Origin: Mesorhizobium sp. NZP2077
Lineage (GTDB): Bacteria > Pseudomonadota > Alphaproteobacteria > Rhizobiales > Rhizobiaceae
Length of the DNA: 64,000 nucleotides
Direction: 5' to 3'
Assembly (NCBI RefSeq): GCF_013170805.1
Contig: NZ_CP051293.1
Span: forward strand, 3,044,001-3,108,000
The notes beneath the pieces were generated by a model that was not told where the DNA came from, searched no databases, and saw only the letters and a list, made by a program, of their open reading frames with translations. This document shows positions 52,071-63,166 of the stretch, piece after piece; positions within the stretch are counted from its first letter, which is position 1; the number at the start of each line of letters is the position of its first letter. The position numbers were made by a program, and so were the translations under genes.

Positions 52071-54665
52071 TTACTTCGCCTGCGCTAGCTGTTGTTCCAC
52101 CAGGCCGAGTTCCTTCTCGTAGAACCCTTCGAAGCCTGAGGAATATTGCTGCTCGCGAAAGATGTCGCGGGCAGCGATGAAGGCGTCGCGGGCGGCCAGA
52201 AGGCTGGCCTTGTCGTGGGTCCTGGTGCCGATGGCGAGCAGGATTTCGCCGCGCACAGAATGGGTCTTGCCCCAGATGACCGGCGATTTGTCGCGCTTCA
52301 GTTCGGTGAGCGCCAGGTCCATCTGCTCCAGCGCCTTGCGGTAGAGCGGCACACTGTCTTCGGCGTCTCCCATGAAGCGATAGGCGCGGCCGATATTGTA
52401 GGTGATGGTCGCCCAGGTGAAGGGATCGCGCGCCCGGGTGATCACCTCATGCGCCTTGTCGAACGTGTCAATCGACTGTCTGAAATAGTCCGAGCCCTTT
52501 CCGCGCTGGCCAAGCGCCAACAGAGCAGCACCAAGGTTGTTTTCGGTCGATGCCCAATCGACGGGCTGCTTGTCGCGCGTGCGGACTTCGAGCACATCTT
52601 CGAACGCCGCGACCGACGCCTCGAGCATCTCGGTGCCATCCTGCAGATCGCCGAGCTGGCGCATCGAAACGGCGAGATTGGCCTCGGCCATCGCCCATTG
52701 CACCGGCACCTTCTCGCGCGTCCAGACGGTCAGCGCGCCATGGAACGCTTCGATCGCCTGGCTCAGGTTCTTCTTCGCATTGCCTGCATCCCCCATGGCG
52801 GAGAGTTCGTTGCCGATGTTGTTCTGCAGCCCCGCCCAGGCGTCGGGGTCGATCTCTTTCCTGTAGACTTTCAGGGCCTGCCGAAACGCCTCTATGGCCT
52901 TGTTGTAGTAGGCCATACCACCGGCGCGCTGGGCCATCAGATCGTAGGCGTTGCCGAGATTGATCTGCACCGTTGCCCATTCCTGCGGATTGCGCTTGCG
53001 GGTGAAGACCTTGAGCGCATCTTCATAGACGCCGATTGCCTGCTCGACGCGCGCGGTGCCGTTCTCGCGCTCGGCCAGTGCCGTCAGCGTGATGCCTTCG
53101 TTGATGGCGACGCCGGCGGGGCCGCCGAAAACAGTGACGCCGGGCAGAAGCTTTGCCGCTTCGTAGACATCGACGGCCTGCTGAAGTGCCGCGTTCTCGC
53201 CCTTGACCATGCCCTGGTCGGTCAATGCATCGGCCTCGAAGACCTTGTAGAGGAAGGCGGCCTTCGGGTCCCAGCGCTCGGTCTGGCGGAAGGCGTCCTC
53301 GTAACGCTCGGCGGCGGTGCGATAGTCGAAGTTGAGGATCGCGGTGCGGGCATGGTCGGCGAAAGTGCCAGCCAATTCCAGCCGCCTCTGCCTGATATCA
53401 GCCTCGGCCTCGTCGAGCTCTTTGCTGATCTCCTCGGCACGGGCGCTGGCCCTGGCGCGGAAGGTCAGCGCCAAATTGATCGCGCCTTCCGATTGCGCGC
53501 GGTCGGCAAGGCCGGAAAGCCGAATCAATTCCGGATCCTGCCGGGTTTCGGTGTCGTGGCGGTTGAGGATCTCGCGCAGCTTCTGTGCACCCGCCGCGAG
53601 CTGCGCCTGCAAATCGGCGGGTCCGGCCGATGTGTCGACCTGCAAGGCGCCGAGCATGCCGTAGAGCTGGTCGAGTGGCACCTCGTTCTGCGCCGCCACG
53701 GTCTCGACCATCGAGCGCTGCCCGGCCGGTGTCGCGGCGATGGTCAGCAGGAGCTTGCGCCGCGCGGAACGGATCGAGGCCTCGTCGCTGCCGGTTTCCT
53801 CCGGCGCCTGGCCGAAATAGAGCAGGCGCCGCAAGCTGGCGTTCGTCCAGGGCAATTGCCGGCCGCCGGTCTTCACATAGACCTCCTCGGCAACCATGGT
53901 CATGACATCGCCGAAGGCGAAGCCGCCGGCAGCGAGATGTTTCAAAAGGGCGGCGGCATAGGGGCTGTTGCCGCCGGGCTCCCCGTCGAGCGCCGCATGG
54001 CCGGGCTCGGCGGCAAAGCCGATGACCTCGCCCAAGCTCTGCGGCGCGCCGGATGCATCCGCAAGGGGAGCCGCACCCCGAGCGAGATCGAGCCCGGCGG
54101 CGGCGACCGGCGCCGGCCCGGACGGGGCGGCTAGCGTCGCGTCCAGCGGAAACGGGTTGGAGCGGCAGGCGTCGAGCAGCACGATCGCCACCGGCACTCT
54201 GGCTTTGAGTTCAGCCAACAGAGCGGAGACCGGCACCAGCCGATTCGCCGGATCGGCAAGCGAGGAGGCGTCCGCCTCGACCGGCACCAGGTAATTCTCG
54301 CCGCCGGCCTCGATGCCGTGGCCGGAATAGTAGAGCAGGGCGACATCGGCGCCGGCCGCGTCCTCGACGAAATGCTTGAGGCCGCGCGCCAGGCGAGGCC
54401 CATCGCCATCGGGAATGGAGCTGACCTCGAAGCCTAGGCTGGTCAAAAGCTGGGCGACGGCGCGCGCATCGTTGGCCGGGTTGGGAAGCGCGGGCAGGGA
54501 ACGGTATTGCGATTCACCGATGACCAGTGCCACGCCGCGCAACGGCCTGACGTCATCGGCCCGTGCCGGCCATGCCAGCACGAAAGCCTGCAGCGCCAGC
54601 AGCAGCCATGCAGCGCAAAAAGCAAAGCGATGCCAACCCGCCATGCAAAACCCCGATAAGCCCAA
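52071..54665 (-). CDS. Caspase-like (C14) protease with TPR repeats, exported
   Basis: An 864-residue protein. The N-terminal signal sequence (about 12-36, ending ARA-D) is followed by a caspase-family p20 domain (about 40-290) with the catalytic pair H116 in YYSGHGIE and C167 in LLDACRSNPF. About 330-430 are helical/coiled, and 440-860 hold many TPR-type repeats (ATVQINLGNAYDLMAQR, AGLQNNIGNELSAMGDA, ASTENNLGAALLALGQR, ATITYNIGRAYRFMGDA). Bacterial orthocaspases of this form are common in rhizobia; the exported location is unusual for a regulator of cell death. Start ATG 54665 or 54644. Divergent from a HerA-like gene. Confidence 0.88.
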   Translation of the reverse strand: MGLSGFCMAGWHRFAFCAAWLLLALQAFVLAWPARADDVRPLRGVALVIGESQYRSLPALPNPANDARAVAQLLTSLGFEVSSIPDGDGPRLARGLKHFVEDAAGADVALLYYSGHGIEAGGENYLVPVEADASSLADPANRLVPVSALLAELKARVPVAIVLLDACRSNPFPLDATLAAPSGPAPVAAAGLDLARGAAPLADASGAPQSLGEVIGFAAEPGHAALDGEPGGNSPYAAALLKHLAAGGFAFGDVMTMVAEEVYVKTGGRQLPWTNASLRRLLYFGQAPEETGSDEASIRSARRKLLLTIAATPAGQRSMVETVAAQNEVPLDQLYGMLGALQVDTSAGPADLQAQLAAGAQKLREILNRHDTETRQDPELIRLSGLADRAQSEGAINLALTFRARASARAEEISKELDEAEADIRQRRLELAGTFADHARTAILNFDYRTAAERYEDAFRQTERWDPKAAFLYKVFEADALTDQGMVKGENAALQQAVDVYEAAKLLPGVTVFGGPAGVAINEGITLTALAERENGTARVEQAIGVYEDALKVFTRKRNPQEWATVQINLGNAYDLMAQRAGGMAYYNKAIEAFRQALKVYRKEIDPDAWAGLQNNIGNELSAMGDAGNAKKNLSQAIEAFHGALTVWTREKVPVQWAMAEANLAVSMRQLGDLQDGTEMLEASVAAFEDVLEVRTRDKQPVDWASTENNLGAALLALGQRGKGSDYFRQSIDTFDKAHEVITRARDPFTWATITYNIGRAYRFMGDAEDSVPLYRKALEQMDLALTELKRDKSPVIWGKTHSVRGEILLAIGTRTHDKASLLAARDAFIAARDIFREQQYSSGFEGFYEKELGLVEQQLAQAK

Positions 54666-56543: not shown

Positions 56544-57359
56544 ATGACGCGCTCGACTCCTGGCGGATCGCAGACACAGCCTGGCGGCAATGCCGCCCGG
56601 GTGCGCATCATGGGGACGCCGCGGTCCGGCACGAATCTCGCCAAGCTCCTGGTCGAAACCCATCTCGGCGTGCCTGTCGTCTTCGACCAGGGCTTTTGGA
56701 AGCATGGGATCTTTCCGGCGCTGATGAACGGACGCGACCTTGGATATGGCGACTTGCCCATCATCGTGATGAGCAAGGATCCCATTACCCAGCTTCTGTC
56801 ATGGTTCCGTTACAGCAGGAACGACAGCCTCTTCAGGCCGGCCAGACATCTCGGTCCGTTCTTGAGCGGGCCTTTCGAAATCAGGCAGGATTTCACGCAG
56901 CCCAGGATGACCTACAGGTTCCGCACACCTGCCGATTACTGGAACCAGTTCTACTTTGCCCTGGAAGCCTTGCGCGGCACCGGCGCGCCGGTGCATTTCG
57001 TCAGCTACGAGCAGCTCGTTTCGACGCCGGCGCTTTGCCTCGCTTCGATTTCGCGTTTTCTCGACCTGTCCCCGCCTTTCGACGCCGGCGCCACGGTGAC
57101 CATCCCACGGCATGCGCTCGCCGCGAGCAATGACATCGACCGGCCGACGGGCCCGGCCGCCAAGCAGGGTCCGTTCGATCCCTCGCGCGCGGATCTGGCA
57201 TCGGCACTCGCCAGGATCGGATGGCGCAATGCCCGCCTCATCCTGCGCGACATCGACGATGACGTGCTCGATGCAACCGGCCGGGCCGGATTTCGCAAAA
57301 CCTGGCGGAAAGCGATTGGTCCCGCGGCGATAGCGAGGTCGTTCATCGGCTTCTGGTGA
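56544..57359 (+). CDS. Sulfotransferase-like protein 1
   Basis: A 271-residue soluble protein. The 5'-phosphosulfate-loop is GTPRSGTNL (24-32); the 3'-phosphate motif is SKDPITQLLSWFRYSRN (about 76-93), both as in PAPS-dependent sulfotransferases. A second conserved stretch, TPADYWNQFYFAL, and the C-terminal ARIGWRNARLILRDIDDDVL are shared with its paralogue at 62.3 kb. It lacks a signal peptide. It probably adds sulfate to a carbohydrate or lipid headgroup, but the acceptor is unknown. Linked by 7 bp to the HerA-like gene. Confidence 0.8.
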   Translation: MTRSTPGGSQTQPGGNAARVRIMGTPRSGTNLAKLLVETHLGVPVVFDQGFWKHGIFPALMNGRDLGYGDLPIIVMSKDPITQLLSWFRYSRNDSLFRPARHLGPFLSGPFEIRQDFTQPRMTYRFRTPADYWNQFYFALEALRGTGAPVHFVSYEQLVSTPALCLASISRFLDLSPPFDAGATVTIPRHALAASNDIDRPTGPAAKQGPFDPSRADLASALARIGWRNARLILRDIDDDVLDATGRAGFRKTWRKAIGPAAIARSFIGFW

Positions 57360-57390: not shown

Positions 57391-57888
57391 CTATTTCTGT
57401 TTTCGGCCCAGCCCCATGGATTTGGCGAGTTTCGAGCGCGTTGCGGAATAGTTTGGCGCCACCATCGGGTAGCTGGAAGGCAGGTTCCACTTCTTTCGAT
57501 ACTGGTCCGGCGTCAGGCCATAGTTCGTCTCGATATGCCGCTTCAGCGATTTGAAACGCTTGCCGTCCTCCAGGCAGATGATGAAATCCGGCGTGACGGA
57601 TTTTTTCACGGGGACGGCATATCTGATCTCGTCAGGCCCGCCATCGGCAACGCCATCCGAAATATTCCGGATCGATGCGTGTATTTTTCCGATGAAGTCG
57701 GGAAGCTCGGCGGCGGGAATGGGATTGTTCGAGACATAGGACGAGACAATGTCGGCGGTTATGGAAATAACCGGATCGATATGCGTTCCATTTCCGGCGT
57801 ATGCGCCGGCGCCGCTGACTTCATCAGGCGTTTCTTCGAAAATCCCCCCGCCCCGAACGATGGTTGGTCTGACATAAGGCTTCTTCAA
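57391..57888 (-). CDS. MucR/Ros-family regulator with degenerate zinc-finger residues
   Basis: A 165-residue DNA-binding protein. The start is a TTG at 57888, preceded by AGGAGAAG; an upstream ATG at 57993 has no ribosome site and would lie over the promoter. The Ros-type finger is IICLEDGKRFKSLKRHIETN (103-122) followed by YGLTPDQYRKKWNLP. The ligand positions of Ros are C105, D108 (Cys in Ros), H118 and N122 (His in Ros), so zinc binding is doubtful, as in the zinc-less Ros homologues known from M. loti. MucR proteins control exopolysaccharide genes; a 17-bp palindrome fills its own promoter. Confidence 0.9.
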   Translation of the reverse strand: MKKPYVRPTIVRGGGIFEETPDEVSGAGAYAGNGTHIDPVISITADIVSSYVSNNPIPAAELPDFIGKIHASIRNISDGVADGGPDEIRYAVPVKKSVTPDFIICLEDGKRFKSLKRHIETNYGLTPDQYRKKWNLPSSYPMVAPNYSATRSKLAKSMGLGRKQK

Positions 57889-57941: not shown

Positions 57942-57958
57942 GTGGGAAAATTTCACAC
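57942..57958 (-). promoter_or_regulatory. 17-bp palindromic operator, site 1 (mucR-like promoter)
   Basis: GTGGGAAAATTTCACAC. On the minus strand TTGACA (57965-57960) lies one base ahead of it and AACTAT directly after it, so the site sits between the -35 and the -10 of the mucR-like gene. This is the place for autorepression. Confidence 0.65.
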
Positions 57959-58080
57959 GTGTCAACTGGCGTAAACCAAGATGATTTGGCCAAGTCGAGA
58001 TGTCTTTCCCCATCGGGGTGCGGGCAACCGAACTACGCGACAGAAGGACCGCCGATGTCGCTTCTTTGGCCGGCGCCCTT

Positions 58081-58097
58081 GTGGAAGCATTTCCCAC
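58081..58097 (+). promoter_or_regulatory. 17-bp palindromic operator, site 2 (DUF6502-type operon)
   Basis: GTGGAAGCATTTCCCAC, with AAGCTATTTT following on the plus strand, comparable to the AACTAT after site 1. It lies 69 bp before the chosen start of the operon's first gene. Confidence 0.55.
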
Positions 58098-58165
58098 AAG
58101 CTATTTTCGGCAGGAATTTCCGAGGGATGGATGATCGATCTCGCGATTGAGAAGTGAAGGCGACG

Positions 58166-59035
58166 ATGAGCAAATCGGCGGGACAATATCTGGATGCCGC
58201 AGGCGTCCAGGGCGCGTTGAACCGGGTTCTTCGCCCGCTGGTGCGGCTCGCCATCAAGTGCGGGGTGACCTTTCCGGCCTTCGTCGATCTGTTGCGCCAA
58301 CTCTACGTCAATGTGGCCGAGCATGAATTCGCCTTGCCCGACAAGCAGCAGACCGACTCCAGGGTCAGCCTGCTGACGGGCGTCCACAGGAAGGAAGTCA
58401 GCCGGCTGAGAGGGGCGGGCGCGCCGGTGCGGGTGGTGCCCGATTCCGTGTCCCGGACGAGCGCCATCGTCGCGCGCTGGCTGGCCGATCCGCTGTTCGT
58501 CGACGCCAAGGGCGTGCCGTTGCCGCTGGCGCGGACGAGCGAGGCGGGAGAGCCGTCCTTTGCCGGCCTGGTGGAATCGGTTACCCGCGATCTCAGGCCG
58601 CGCGCCGTTCTCGACGACTGGCTCGACCGAGAGCTGGTCGAAATCGACGGCAAGGATCGCATCGTCCTGATGGAAGGGGCGATGGTGCCGCGCGGCGACG
58701 GCGAGGTCCGGCTTTACTACTTTGCCCGCAATCTCGGGGATCATGCGGCCGCCTCGGTCGAGAACGTTCTGGCTGACGCTCCGCCCTTCCTCGAGCGCGC
58801 CGTCCATTATGACGGGCTGTCGGAAGAGCTTGCCCGGTCGCTCGAGGCCTACAGCCGCGAGATCGCGGTCGAAACGCTGCTGCGCCTCAACAAATACGCA
58901 AACCAGGCCATTCAAAACGACCCGGGCGGGAACAGCCGCTGGAACTGGGGCGTCTATATCCTCACCGCCGACGGCACGTCGCTGGTTGCCGAGGAATCGC
59001 CTGAGATCAAGGATGCCGGCGGAGAGACGGCATGA
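58166..59035 (+). CDS. DUF6502 family protein
   Basis: A 289-residue soluble protein of a family of unknown function that I place as DUF6502 (QGALNRVLRPLVRLAIKCGV, TFPAFVDLLRQLYVNVAEHE, SRVSLLTGVHRKEVSRL). The N-terminal 90 residues look like a winged helix, suggesting DNA binding. The start ATG 58166 follows GAAGG; GTG 58154 is possible. It overlaps the next gene by four bases (ATGA). The pair DUF6502-DUF5666 is found together in other proteobacteria, as I recall. Site 2 of the palindrome lies in its leader. Confidence 0.75.
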   Translation: MSKSAGQYLDAAGVQGALNRVLRPLVRLAIKCGVTFPAFVDLLRQLYVNVAEHEFALPDKQQTDSRVSLLTGVHRKEVSRLRGAGAPVRVVPDSVSRTSAIVARWLADPLFVDAKGVPLPLARTSEAGEPSFAGLVESVTRDLRPRAVLDDWLDRELVEIDGKDRIVLMEGAMVPRGDGEVRLYYFARNLGDHAAASVENVLADAPPFLERAVHYDGLSEELARSLEAYSREIAVETLLRLNKYANQAIQNDPGGNSRWNWGVYILTADGTSLVAEESPEIKDAGGETA

Positions 59036-60099
59036 GCGGCAGGCCGACGAGACGGGGTTTCCTGACGCTCGCAGCCACCGTGCCGGCGGTGTTCTTCAGC
59101 CTGCTCGCGCGGGCGACCGAACAGCCGAAAGACCAGGGCGTTGGCGGCACCGGCTGGACAGCGGGGACCGAGGGCGACCAGGGCATCGGCGGCACCGGCA
59201 TCGTCGGCACGATCCAGCGCTTCGGCAGCATTTTCGTCAACGGCGTACGGGTTCAGTACCAGCCTGACGTGCCGGTCTGGGTCGACGGCGTCCGTGTCGC
59301 CTCGAACAGGCTGAAGGTCGGGCATGTCGTTCGCGTCGCGGTGGTCCAAAAGACCGACCGCGTGATGACCTCCGCCATCCATGTTACCAGCGAGGTTGTG
59401 GGACCGGTCGAGCGCAAGACCGCCGGCTCGATGCGGGTGCTGGGACAGCAGGTCGACATCAGCCAGCTTGCGGAGGCATCGACGGTCGGGGTGGGCGATA
59501 TCGTCGCCGTCCACGGCATTCGCCGGCCCGACGGGAAAATCGTTGCCAGCCTGGTGGAGGCCAGGCCGGATGAAACGCATTATCTGGTTCGCGGCCTGGC
59601 GGTGGTGCGGTCGGGCGCGTTGCTGGTCGGGCGGCTGAAGATCGGACAGGGATCATCGCCGCTGGCAAATCGACGCGTGCAACTGACCCTCGCCAAGGCC
59701 ACGGACGGATACAAGATCGTGCATCTGGAAGCGGAAGCACCGGTGCCGCAGGCCCATGTCGCCGATGTTCTCTACGAGACGTTCCTGCAGCGCCGCGGAC
59801 ATCGGCTGGAATCGGGTCTGGGCATCGCCGTCGACAATCAGAACGGCGATGTGACATCGACGGCTGCCGTCCGGGCGTTTATCGAGGTCGGGTTCGATCG
59901 CGCGGGCAATGTCCTTTCGGCGTCGCGTGGGCACAATGCCGGCGGGCCGTCACCGAACCAGCCCGGCATGCCGCCGGGTCCGCCTCCCGGCGGACCGACC
60001 GGGCCGGGGGGACCGACCGGGCCGGGGGGACCGACTGGACCGGGCGGACCTGGGGGGGCCGGGGGACCAGGCGGCCCTGGTGGGCCGGGCGCGCCTTAG
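59032..60099 (+). CDS. DUF5666-type protein with Tat signal and collagen-like tail
   Basis: A 355-residue exported protein. The N-terminus PTRRGFLTLA (residues 5-14) is a twin-arginine signal followed by a hydrophobic stretch. Residues 35-55 have repeated GVGGTGW/GIGGTGI. Small beta-barrel domains of the DUF5666 kind follow (VGTIQRFGSIFVNGVRVQYQ, VHGIRRPDGKIVASLVEAR). Residues 304-355 form a Pro/Gly-rich tail with GPTGPG repeats and Gly at nearly every third position, encoded by three 18-bp tandem units (59992-60045). It could be a surface or periplasmic stalk. Second gene of a two-gene unit. Confidence 0.75.
   Translation: MSGRPTRRGFLTLAATVPAVFFSLLARATEQPKDQGVGGTGWTAGTEGDQGIGGTGIVGTIQRFGSIFVNGVRVQYQPDVPVWVDGVRVASNRLKVGHVVRVAVVQKTDRVMTSAIHVTSEVVGPVERKTAGSMRVLGQQVDISQLAEASTVGVGDIVAVHGIRRPDGKIVASLVEARPDETHYLVRGLAVVRSGALLVGRLKIGQGSSPLANRRVQLTLAKATDGYKIVHLEAEAPVPQAHVADVLYETFLQRRGHRLESGLGIAVDNQNGDVTSTAAVRAFIEVGFDRAGNVLSASRGHNAGGPSPNQPGMPPGPPPGGPTGPGGPTGPGGPTGPGGPGGAGGPGGPGGPGAP
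59992..60045 (+). repeat. Three 18-bp tandem repeats in the collagen-like tail
   Basis: GGACCGACCGGGCCGGGG occurs twice exactly and a third time with changes, coding for GPTGPG units. Copy number of such minisatellites can change by slippage. Confidence 0.75.
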
Positions 60100-60116
60100 C
60101 AGCAAATCTCCGGCGT

Positions 60117-60292
60117 TGGCGCTGCCCCTCACTGTCCTGCCGGACATCTCTCCCCGTAAACGGGGCGAGAGGGGCTCGCCTCGATGCCGCGCCATCTCAG
60201 CAGTACTGATGATTGGCGAAAGCAGAGATGGGAGCGTCCTTCGCCCCGTTTACGGGGAGAAGATGGCGGCAGCCAGATGAGGGGCAGCGCAA
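60117..60292. repeat. Palindromic intergenic repeat element with about 49-bp inverted ends
   Basis: The left end GCGCTGCCCCTCACTGTCCT... and the minus-strand reading of the right end GCGCTGCCCCTCATCTGGCT... agree at most positions over about 49 bp and both run to CCCCGTAAACGGGGCG. The middle of about 80 bp has no reading frame. It resembles a MITE or rhizobial palindromic repeat, with a second relative at 21284-21428. Confidence 0.65.
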
Positions 60293-60615
60293 ACGGCTGG
60301 CCGTTGTGGCGCGGCGGAATGGTCCATCGTTTCAGCAAACGCTGAACGCCTCCATTTCCTTAGCTTTGCGCATTTTCGCATGGGAACACCCCTCGCGCTT
60401 CTGCCAGCGTTCTGGAGGAAGCAACGATCCGGCCGGTCCGTCCTTTGCGATAGACAGAACCGGCCGGCACAGCCGTACGGGGCTCGTTGGGTTGGGGCGT
60501 AAGCTTTTTTTGGTACGGCTGCTTTCCGCGGACCATACGGGGGGCGGACGGTCCGCTGAATCCTATGGAATGTCCTGGCTTCCTTTCCTCTCGCAGTCGC
60601 TGACGGACTCAACAT

Positions 60616-60632
60616 GTGGGAAAATTACCCAT
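60616..60632 (-). promoter_or_regulatory. 17-bp palindromic operator, site 3
   Basis: GTGGGAAAATTACCCAT, followed by AAGTCAACTG. It shares with site 1 the wider form GTGGGAAAATT-N-C-N-CA plus GTCAACTG, so a minus-strand -35 (TTGAC) also stands at the same distance. No gene follows on that strand; it may act on the promoter 39 bp further on. Confidence 0.6.
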
Positions 60633-60649
60633 AAGTCAACTGTGTGCTC

Positions 60650-60678
60650 TTGACGTGGGTAAATTTCCCGCATACATG
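60650..60678 (+). promoter_or_regulatory. Promoter with palindromic operator, site 4 (glycosyltransferase operon)
   Basis: TTGACG (60650-60655) and TACATG (60673-60678) with a 17-base spacer. Site 4, GTGGGTAAATTTCCCGC (60655-60671), fills the spacer, the same geometry as at the mucR-like gene. Binding would block polymerase. Confidence 0.6.
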
Positions 60679-60839
60679 AAATTGACACCTGAGGACGATC
60701 ATTTCCGATCCTCGGGCCTCGGAACAAGGCAAGACAATCCGAAATGATGCGGCCGAAATGATGCGGCTTTGGCCGCGACGGATTTCGTTGCCTCCGGATC
60801 GAGTTGATTTTCGGTGCAGCAACCCTCGAAGGTAAACCA

Positions 60840-62345
60840 TTGAAAAAACTGTATAATGATCCCTCCCTGCCGTTTCGCTGGGGGCCGCATCCGCCAGTGG
60901 GTATCCCGCGCGTCGAAACGGCGCTCATCCGTCAGGCGCTGCGATGGAAGGGTTCGCCGGTCGGCTTCTTCATCGTCGACGCCTGGGGGCACGGTCAAAG
61001 GCTCGATGAAACGGAACTTCGCTATCTCCGTCGGCTGGTCGACGGCGACCTGCTGCAACCGATTGGCAGCGAGGGAAGCTCGTATCTGGCGCGGCTGTGG
61101 AAAGTGCTGTCGATCATGCGGGCGGCGCCCTTCGCCGCCGGACGCGAGTTCGATCGCGTGGCGGCGATCTTCCTCTCGGGGTCCGATAAGAGACGCGGGG
61201 TCAAGTTTCAGCTGTCGAAAACGGCGATCCGGCTGTTCAAGATCGTGAAGTCGGCGCTGCGCCCAAGCAGGCTCGATAGCGGCGATCCGTTGAAAGACGA
61301 AAACGCCATCTGCTTTCTGTCCAGCGCCAGCGTCCACGAACTGGCCTCGGGCAAGTTCGCGAGGAGAAAAGCAAAAAGCGGCATCTTCACCCTGATGCAC
61401 GACCTCATTCCGATCGATTTTCCGCAATTCGTCGGTCCGCATCACGCGCGCGGTTTCGTGCGCAACACGGCATGGCAGCTGGACAATGTGCAGCTGCTGG
61501 TCTGCGTGTCGAAATACACCGCCGACAGGGTGAAATGCCATGCCAAGGCCTCCGGCATTGGCCGGGTCCCGCGGGTCGCGGTTGCATCGCCCGGCGCGTT
61601 CCTGAGGGAAGGCGTCAGCGACCGGGAAATGTCCACTGAGCGGCAAAACCGGAACCGCAGATTCGTCCTCTACTGCTCGACGATCGAGATCCGCAAAAAC
61701 CACATCCTGCTGCTCAAGGTCTGGCAGCGGCTCTTGCCGCTGCTAGGAGAGCGGCTGCCGACGCTCGTGCTGTGCGGCCGCTGGGGCTGGATGTATGAGG
61801 AACTCACCGCCTTCATGGCTGAGCATCCCGAACTTGCCGAGCATGTCCAGTTTCGCTCCAACCTCAGCGACCGGGAGCTGGCGGAACTCTACCGGGACGC
61901 CGAATTCAGCGTCTACCCCTCAGCGGTCGAAGGCTGGGGGCTGGGCGCCGCCGAGTGCCTCGATTTCGGACTGCCGGTGCTGATTTCGGACGCGCCTTCG
62001 CTGACGGAGGCGACGCAAGGGCTGATGCCGACCATTCCCGCGCACGACGTCGAAGGCTGGTGTGCCGCGGTCGCCAAGGCCTGCACCGATCCGGTCTGGC
62101 TGGCGGAATTGCGCCACACGATCGCGACGCGCTACCGCCCGATCCGCGAGCGAGAATTTTTCGCGACCATTGTCGACCACGTCGCGGCAATCGACGCTGT
62201 CGCGGAAGCCGACGCTGAGACCGACCCTGTCGCTGAGATCGCCTTCGACGATTTCGCGCCGAGGATTTACGGGCCGGCGGCGGCAGGGCAGGTCAGGCAG
62301 CCCAGCGCATTGGCCGCCGACCAACCGGCATTTCGTGGGGCGTGA
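60840..62345 (+). CDS. Glycosyltransferase, GT4 family
   Basis: A 501-residue soluble glycosyltransferase of GT-B fold. The start is a TTG (60840) shortly after GAAGGTAAACCA; a TTG at 60804 in frame is also possible. The C-terminal GT4 domain has the EX7E-type motif EGWGLGAAE in YPSAVEGWGLGAAECLDFGL, then PVLISDAPSLTEA; the N-terminal half includes IFTLMHDLIPIDFPQF and VCVSKYTADRV, common in mannosyl/rhamnosyl transferases of exopolysaccharides. Its stop overlaps the next gene's ATG by one base (TGATG), so it is coupled to the sulfotransferase. The promoter holds two palindromic operators. Confidence 0.88.
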   Translation: MKKLYNDPSLPFRWGPHPPVGIPRVETALIRQALRWKGSPVGFFIVDAWGHGQRLDETELRYLRRLVDGDLLQPIGSEGSSYLARLWKVLSIMRAAPFAAGREFDRVAAIFLSGSDKRRGVKFQLSKTAIRLFKIVKSALRPSRLDSGDPLKDENAICFLSSASVHELASGKFARRKAKSGIFTLMHDLIPIDFPQFVGPHHARGFVRNTAWQLDNVQLLVCVSKYTADRVKCHAKASGIGRVPRVAVASPGAFLREGVSDREMSTERQNRNRRFVLYCSTIEIRKNHILLLKVWQRLLPLLGERLPTLVLCGRWGWMYEELTAFMAEHPELAEHVQFRSNLSDRELAELYRDAEFSVYPSAVEGWGLGAAECLDFGLPVLISDAPSLTEATQGLMPTIPAHDVEGWCAAVAKACTDPVWLAELRHTIATRYRPIREREFFATIVDHVAAIDAVAEADAETDPVAEIAFDDFAPRIYGPAAAGQVRQPSALAADQPAFRGA

Positions 62346-63166
62346 TGGGAAGCATTGTCGATATGTCGACGCTCGGCGGCGCGCGGGAGCGCTCCGGCAC
62401 TGTTGCGGTGCGGGTGATGGGGACGCCGCGTTCCGGCACCAATCTGGCGAAATATCTGCTCGAACGTTACCTCGGGGTGCAAATCGTCTTCGATCACGGC
62501 TTTTGGAAGCACGGGGTCTTTCCGGCGCTGGTGAACGGGCGCGACATTCAGTATGGCGACTTGCCCATCGTCGTCCTCAGCAAGGATCCCGTCAGCCAGA
62601 TCCTGTCGTGGTTCCGCCTTGCCAGGAACGATACGATTTTCAAGCCGAACGGCAATCTCGGCTCGTTTCTCACGCAGTCCTTCGACGTCAGGCAGGATTT
62701 CACCGCGCCGAAGCGCATGGAGTACAGGTTCCATTCGCCGGCCGATTACTGGAACCAGTTCTATTTCGCCATGGATGCGCTTCGCCGCTCCGGCGCGCCG
62801 GTGCATTTTGTGCGCTATGAGCAGCTGGTTTCAGAACCGGCCGAGTGTCTCGGTTCGACCTTGCGTTTTCTCGATCTTGCCTCGGTCTTCGATGACCGCC
62901 GGGTGGTGGCTCTCCCCAGGCACACGCTCGGCGCGAGCAATGATTTTGACCCGGCGCAAAGCCCGGCGGATGAGAAGATTTTCGACCCCGCGCGCGCCGA
63001 GCTCACATCGGCGCTGGCCAGGATGGGATGGCGCAATGCCCGCGCCATCCTGCGCGCCGTCGACGACGACGTGCTGGATGCCACGGGCCGGTCCGGATTT
63101 CGCCAGACCTGCCGCGAGGCGGTTGGCCCGGCCGCCATACTGAGGTCGCTCGTCGGCTTCTGGTGA
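62345..63166 (+). CDS. Sulfotransferase-like protein 2
   Basis: A 273-residue paralogue of the 56.5 kb protein. The 5'-phosphosulfate loop is GTPRSGTNL (26-34) and the second motif SKDPVSQILSWFRLARN. ADYWNQFYFAMDALRRSGAP and ARMGWRNARAILRAVDDDVL repeat the other copy nearly word for word. ATG 62345 overlaps the glycosyltransferase stop; GTG 62342 is in frame as an alternative. Coupling to a glycosyltransferase points to sulfation of a newly made glycan. That is inference. Confidence 0.82.
   Translation: MGSIVDMSTLGGARERSGTVAVRVMGTPRSGTNLAKYLLERYLGVQIVFDHGFWKHGVFPALVNGRDIQYGDLPIVVLSKDPVSQILSWFRLARNDTIFKPNGNLGSFLTQSFDVRQDFTAPKRMEYRFHSPADYWNQFYFAMDALRRSGAPVHFVRYEQLVSEPAECLGSTLRFLDLASVFDDRRVVALPRHTLGASNDFDPAQSPADEKIFDPARAELTSALARMGWRNARAILRAVDDDVLDATGRSGFRQTCREAVGPAAILRSLVGFW

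Follow-up and report, generated by a model that had tools for sequence, protein, structure and literature searches.

A palindrome conserved upstream of DUF6502 genes suggests an autoregulated cell-surface regulon in Mesorhizobium and other bacteria

Two groups of described regulators invite comparison with the system considered here. According to excerpts of PMC9779718, the targets of Ros/MucR regulators are mainly AT-rich and of low consensus, with palindromic sites also mentioned for Sinorhizobium MucR, while excerpts of PMC4192349 and PMC4649674 give GGG-N5-CCC as the operator consensus of HetR, the heterocyst master regulator of cyanobacteria. Here, we analysed a 64,000-nucleotide stretch of the Mesorhizobium sp. 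NZP2077 genome (contig NZ_CP051293.1, positions 3,044,001 to 3,108,000; hereafter the window), in which four copies of a 17-bp palindrome connect a mucR-like gene, an operon led by a gene of the DUF6502 family (PF20112, a family of unknown function in Pfam) and a glycosyltransferase-sulfotransferase operon. The DUF6502 protein encoded at 58166-59035 is very probably the protein that binds these palindromes. Neither 'DUF6502', 'PF20112', GTGGGN7CCCAC nor the literal operator strings were found in the open-licence papers searched, and a DNA-binding role for DUF6502, together with its operator, is proposed here as new on the basis of comparative sequence analysis.

A scan of the window with GTGGGAAAATTTCCCAC, allowing up to three mismatches, returned exactly four sites (seven strand-matches), whereas shuffled sequences gave a mean of 0.06 and a maximum of 1. 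All four copies described in an earlier sequence-only reading are therefore present, and its statement that the window holds no further copy stands. Site 1 (GTGTGAAATTTTCCCAC, read on the minus strand; 57942-57958) lies in the promoter region of the mucR-like gene, with TTGACA at 57965-57960 placed one base before the operator, such that TTGACAC abuts it on the minus strand. Site 2 (GTGGAAGCATTTCCCAC; 58081-58097, plus strand), the proposed autoregulatory site upstream of the DUF6502-DUF5666 operon, has one arm mismatch to GTGGG-N7-CCCAC and is overlapped by TTGTGG-N17-TATTTT. Two sites precede the glycosyltransferase-sulfotransferase operon on the plus strand: site 3 (GTGGGAAAATTACCCAT; 60616-60632), which is followed by a reversed TTGAC box, and site 4 (GTGGGTAAATTTCCCGC; 60655-60671), which directly follows TTGAC (60650-60654) and occupies the spacer of a candidate promoter for this operon. 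The longer match noticed between sites 1 and 3 was also recovered, with GTCAACTG following both (57942-57966 and 60616-60640) as the reverse complement of a TTGAC-type box. At site 3 a promoter of this orientation would face the end of the DUF5666 gene, where no obvious gene lies, and GTCAA is similarly placed at site 3 in several congeners.

Across the organism's own genome (7,689,947 bases), the same consensus at up to three mismatches returned the four sites and four further single places, each with three mismatches, two of them inside open reading frames (ORFs), one without an ORF nearby and one (G000:C1:258474) located 56 bp before a 392-aa ORF. The AT-core form GTGGG-N-W5-N-CCCAC, at up to one mismatch, recovered sites 1, 3 and 4 and two other places, of which one spans the 3' end of an ORF and the other falls within an ORF. 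Because these extra matches are few, scattered and mostly in or across ORFs, the clear operator set of NZP2077 is local.

Outside the window, the operator tracks DUF6502. In 80 named loci spanning Mesorhizobium, Bradyrhizobium, Methylobacterium, Bosea, Kaistia and others, GTGGG-N7-CCCAC was present within 400 bp upstream of the DUF6502 match in every case at up to one mismatch in the ten arm bases (71 exact), and two or more sites were present in 79. Within these loci, 184 sites fell in the 32,000 positions upstream of DUF6502 versus 46 in 778,468 positions elsewhere, an approximately 97-fold difference in density. After thinning of 122 upstream regions to 100, 66 had the exact motif and 82 had it at up to one mismatch, whereas spacers of 0-6 and 8-15 gave 0-1 exact and 0-5 one-mismatch occurrences each; at a spacer of 7, GTGGG was the best of 1024 arms, with the runner-up reaching 5. 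DUF6502 itself was found in 22 of 150 relatives, 15 of 385 genomes of the class, 21 of 398 genomes of the phylum and, in the other class used below as a hold-out, 64 of 229 genomes. Exact operator pairs occurred in seven of the 385 class genomes, six of which were among the 15 that encode DUF6502. A relaxed operator pair was found in 15 of 54 genomes with DUF6502 versus none of 26 others chosen by us, although two of these 15 (G867 and G869) look like unrelated repeats.

As a hold-out we used the class to which G674 belongs, another class of the phylum and presumably Gammaproteobacteria, which contributed 68 new loci with 67 distinct upstream regions; L103-L105, which had earlier hinted at an 8-bp spacer, were left out of this set. 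Among 16,384 pairs of five-base arm and spacer, TGGGA-N6-TCCCA scored best (16), and ranks 2 to 7 were further registers or forms of the same motif. When 101 DUF6502 proteins of less than 72% identity were pooled, exact TGGG-N7-CCCA was found for 32 and the N8 form for 22, versus 0-2 for each spacer of 2-6 and 9-14, such that 54 of the 101 carried an exact site with a spacer of 7 or 8 and 75 carried one at up to one mismatch. For any one spacer, roughly one region in eight is estimated to have a one-mismatch site by chance, so only the exact sites carry weight. Proteins with H or Q at residue 74 had 32 exact N7 sites versus one N8 site, and those with other residues had 21 exact N8 sites versus no N7 site. 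On a DUF6502 tree built without the helix-turn-helix columns, operator form needs one change, which indicates one clade-level shift rather than many independent ones. Residue 74 of the recognition helix had been considered as a specificity determinant, as in 37 proteins an N7 site accompanied H/Q in 28 of 31 cases and other residues in none of six. This reading was replaced once the T-type proteins proved to have an 8-bp spacer, and, as residue and spacer changed about once, together, their association need not be causal. Four genomes of the set encode both kinds of paralogue, and in G1006 both have exact sites of their own kind, N8 at L278 (SRK) and N7 at L300 (HRK). Within the N8 clade (L103, L104, L105, L243, L260 and others), the operator often occupies the last 20 bp or so ahead of the start codon of DUF6502, and may there act on early transcription or translation start rather than in a promoter spacer.

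Of 60 congeners scanned, groups of sites were detected in ten, the same ten that encode DUF6502; the 50 DUF6502-free congeners had no site clusters and at most one place each. All ten congeneric loci that were fetched preserve the order mucR-like gene, sites 1 and 2, DUF6502, DUF5666, sites 3 and 4, glycosyltransferase and sulfotransferase. Among six further DUF6502-bearing congeners, five had four sites and the sixth (G127) three. With NZP2077 included and G127 set aside, the Mesorhizobium genomes seen with a mucR-like gene beside DUF6502 number 16, all of which have all four sites. G127 lacks both the mucR-like neighbour and site 1, retaining one site before DUF6502 and two before the glycosyltransferase gene, and no site accompanies the MucR homologue (52% identity over 139 residues) encoded elsewhere in the 13 kb fetched. 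Site 1 thus goes with the mucR-like gene, as a likely target. The proposal that three transcription units form one local regulon is thus supported, the four sites being conserved at the same promoters and rare in the genome.

A preferred position of the operators relative to promoter-like boxes was also seen. When 186 sites from 82 loci were read in both directions, there were 62 cases in which TTGA started exactly 5 bp ahead of the operator edge, and of 24 other offsets only two exceeded 4, namely 7 bp (10 times, the kind to which site 1 belongs) and 21 bp (17 times); these counts, like the pair spacings below, are weighted by close relatives. The promoter geometry noted in the sequence-only reading, in which the palindrome fills the gap between TTGAC and the -10 region at sites 1 and 4, is shared by roughly one in three of the sites analysed. 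The spacer between the -35 and -10 regions is the usual place for repressors, and because the abutting TTGAC puts the operator in a spacer of normal length, DUF6502 is judged likely to act by repression. A second operator lies nearer to DUF6502 in most loci, and its combination with boxes that face the divergent direction fits joint control of both sides. Within pairs, the distance between operators is often 30, 39, 49 or 59 bp.

The DUF6502 protein of the window (289 aa, plus strand) matches PF20112 at 103.4 bits (cut-off 27) over positions 6-232 of the 268 in the profile. A helix-turn-helix is predicted at residues 64-83, and an alignment of 37 DUF6502 sequences has seven invariant columns, including S65, G72, R75 and the start methionine. 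The predicted architecture places a further helix-turn-helix before a candidate winged-helix-like module, together with long C-terminal helices.

The identity of the binder has to be weighed against other candidates, since the sequence itself does not show which protein binds. The sequence-only reading had named, as a marked supposition, a MucR-like or other local protein as the binder, and one candidate is the mucR-like protein at 57.4 kb, which would control itself and the two operons. This protein belongs to ROS_MUCR and has a site in its own promoter region. Excerpts of PMC9779718 describe the MucR family as autoregulatory and as controlling genes for exopolysaccharide, with palindromic sequences serving this purpose in Sinorhizobium. 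The same excerpts, however, report that the Mesorhizobium Ros/MucR proteins Ml1 and Ml2 bind an AT-rich AAATA core. A mucR-like match was present in only nine of the 80 named loci, namely those in which DUF6502 shares 81-96% identity with the query; the other 71 keep operators at DUF6502 with no such match in the fetched stretch (median 10.8 kb). It was also absent from all 55 other loci checked. Conversely, ROS_MUCR matches occurred in all 34 genomes checked (1-17 each, 14 in NZP2077) with or without DUF6502, including 12 DUF6502-free congeners that have no site cluster. With the joint absence of site 1 and the neighbouring mucR-like gene in G127, this candidate was rejected as the binder, and we consider it extremely improbable. 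Slightly less improbable, but still very unlikely, is an unlinked, widely conserved regulator of which DUF6502 would be merely the most constant target. Operator groups without a detected DUF6502 in two genomes speak for such a regulator: G302, the seventh genome with an exact pair, has a less AT-rich one, and G076, a genome of another family, has three operators (L048:5696-5804) before a secreted-looking protein with NPPGP...GGPG repeats, although the G076 assembly has a completeness of 88% and a contig ends close to these sites. Against it stand the concentration of exact and relaxed pairs in DUF6502 genomes and the change of operator form with DUF6502 clade. The two paralogue-specific forms within G1006 would be simply accounted for if DUF6502 binds, and place a burden on the unlinked-regulator view. 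That the palindromes, as inverted repeats in intergenic DNA, are chance occurrences, RNA hairpins or terminators has a negligible probability given the 0.06 expected in the window, the phylum-wide conservation with fixed spacing and the -35-like box in fixed register.

If DUF6502 is the binder, it could still activate, or switch between activation and repression, a possibility that we regard as unlikely though appreciable: the pair spacings would permit cooperative or looped complexes and the structure model suggests two DNA-binding-like modules, but the TTGAC-abutted operator sits where a repressor usually would. A further set of observations, in addition to G076 and G302, weighs against DUF6502 as the operator-binding repressor. 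No site was found even at one mismatch for 26 of the 101 pooled proteins, and 21 had a site at one mismatch only (17 in the form of their own clade, two in the other form and two ambiguous). Three sites are in the form of the other clade (L280 exactly, L246 and L286 at one mismatch), and the p-value for the association of residue 74 with spacer (4e-14) is overstated, as it reflects about one evolutionary change. Three of the genomes with both paralogue kinds (G884, G925 and G1021) have an exact site at one paralogue at most, though never an exact one of the form expected for the other paralogue. In G395, an ORF of 682 aa contains one of the three pairs. With respect to promoters, TANNNT follows at the fitting place (+1) after 17 of the 62 TTGA-abutted operators, and all but three of these 62 boxes (59) are oriented away from DUF6502, leaving the geometry at its own promoter less clear. 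Finally, no PDB chain matches DUF6502 significantly, by fold or by sequence.

Computation shows the sites, that they are conserved, that they are associated with DUF6502 and where they lie in promoters; on this basis we infer direct binding, dimerisation and repression as follows. DUF6502, probably as a dimer, would read two TGGG half-sites separated by 7 bp (by 8 bp in the other clade) through its N-terminal helix-turn-helix, binding upstream of its own gene and at a few promoters in the vicinity. Operator-bound DUF6502 would most likely block RNA polymerase, making it an autoregulated repressor of a small cell-surface regulon that answers to a signal, with the DUF6502-DUF5666 operon, the glycosyltransferase-sulfotransferase operon and the mucR-like gene as the putative targets in Mesorhizobium. 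In seven of seven further loci whose downstream neighbour was compared with Pfam, a DUF5666 match follows DUF6502, although one match falls marginally short of the cut-off (26.8 versus 27 bits). Other operator-near genes include those for a family-4 glycosyltransferase/ABC-2 fusion (Bradyrhizobium), an ABC-2 exporter (Bosea), a fasciclin protein, a DUF4214 protein and a pentapeptide protein, and an outer-membrane barrel gene lies approximately 400 bp from operators; in one batch, four of ten operator-near genes had no Pfam match. These are examples only, but they suggest that the regulon is directed to surface and extracellular functions, including polysaccharide, export and secreted proteins. 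If this interpretation is correct, DUF6502 would constitute a new group of gene regulators, transcription factors with a defined operator from which their regulons could be read off genomes, and in Mesorhizobium the mucR-like gene would fall under DUF6502 control.

The starts of the genes of the locus were assigned by rule. The mucR-like zinc-finger regulator (ROS_MUCR, E 3.6e-48; 57391-57888, minus strand), read here as a target, likely starts at a TTG after AGGAGA. The DUF5666 protein, the conserved partner of DUF6502 (59032-60099, plus strand), begins like an RR-type export signal and carries a Gly-Pro tail resembling collagen, as read off the translation by eye. The target operon consists of a family-4 glycosyltransferase (60804-62345, plus strand; a TTG at 60840 may be the start) followed by a sulfotransferase (62342-63166, plus strand). 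A paralogue of the latter at 56544-57359 lies on the other flank of the cluster, the second sharing 66% identity with the first over 216 residues; some fetched congeneric loci have both sulfotransferases and others just the one after the glycosyltransferase. The long gap between DUF5666 and site 3 contains an inverted repeat at 60150-60262 (ctccccgtaaacggggcgagagg ... cgccccgtttacggggag) that, by eye, looks like a dispersed intergenic repeat. Further away, the translation of 52071-54665 (minus strand) resembles, again by eye, a caspase-like peptidase with TPR-like repeats.

Compared with winged-helix repressors such as DtxR/IdeR, MntR and MarR, DUF6502 differs in the predicted extra helix-turn-helix before the candidate winged-helix-like module and in the long C-terminal helices, and no sequence match between these families and DUF6502 was seen among the matches listed. 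For HetR, the consensus in the excerpts cited above has N5 between GGG and CCC, whereas DUF6502 sites have N7 or N8 between TGGG and CCCA. The HetR profiles (Peptidase_S48 and HetR_C) were not among the matches listed for 19 DUF6502 proteins at E up to 1, and neither the HetR family (PF03574) in the NZP2077 genome nor HetR on plasmids was found. An hhalign comparison of DUF6502 with HetR gave E 0.42 and scores not above those of shuffled HetR, although a distant link may have escaped a HetR profile of two near-identical sequences; an 86% probability obtained with -glob -mact 0.01 -shift 0.2 was out of register under a forced score shift and was given no weight. By fold, using the first model, HetR ranked second by VIA-align and was absent among the 50 Foldseek matches listed, with neither score significant. 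It is a doubtful, speculative proposition that DUF6502 is an ancient and very divergent proteobacterial counterpart of HetR that kept its build, autoregulation and palindrome while governing surface polysaccharide and secreted matrix proteins rather than differentiation. Were it true, HetR could no longer be seen as an invention of cyanobacteria alone, and a small peptide or other ligand might control DUF6502 as it does HetR. As for Ros/MucR regulators, a member of this family is encoded next to the sites, where it is probably a target, and the family also controls surface polysaccharides, as stated in excerpts of PMC9779718. The operators nevertheless differ, as the sequence-only reading had remarked of the AT-rich Ros/MucR sites: the palindromes described here are strict, have G+C-rich arms and track DUF6502.

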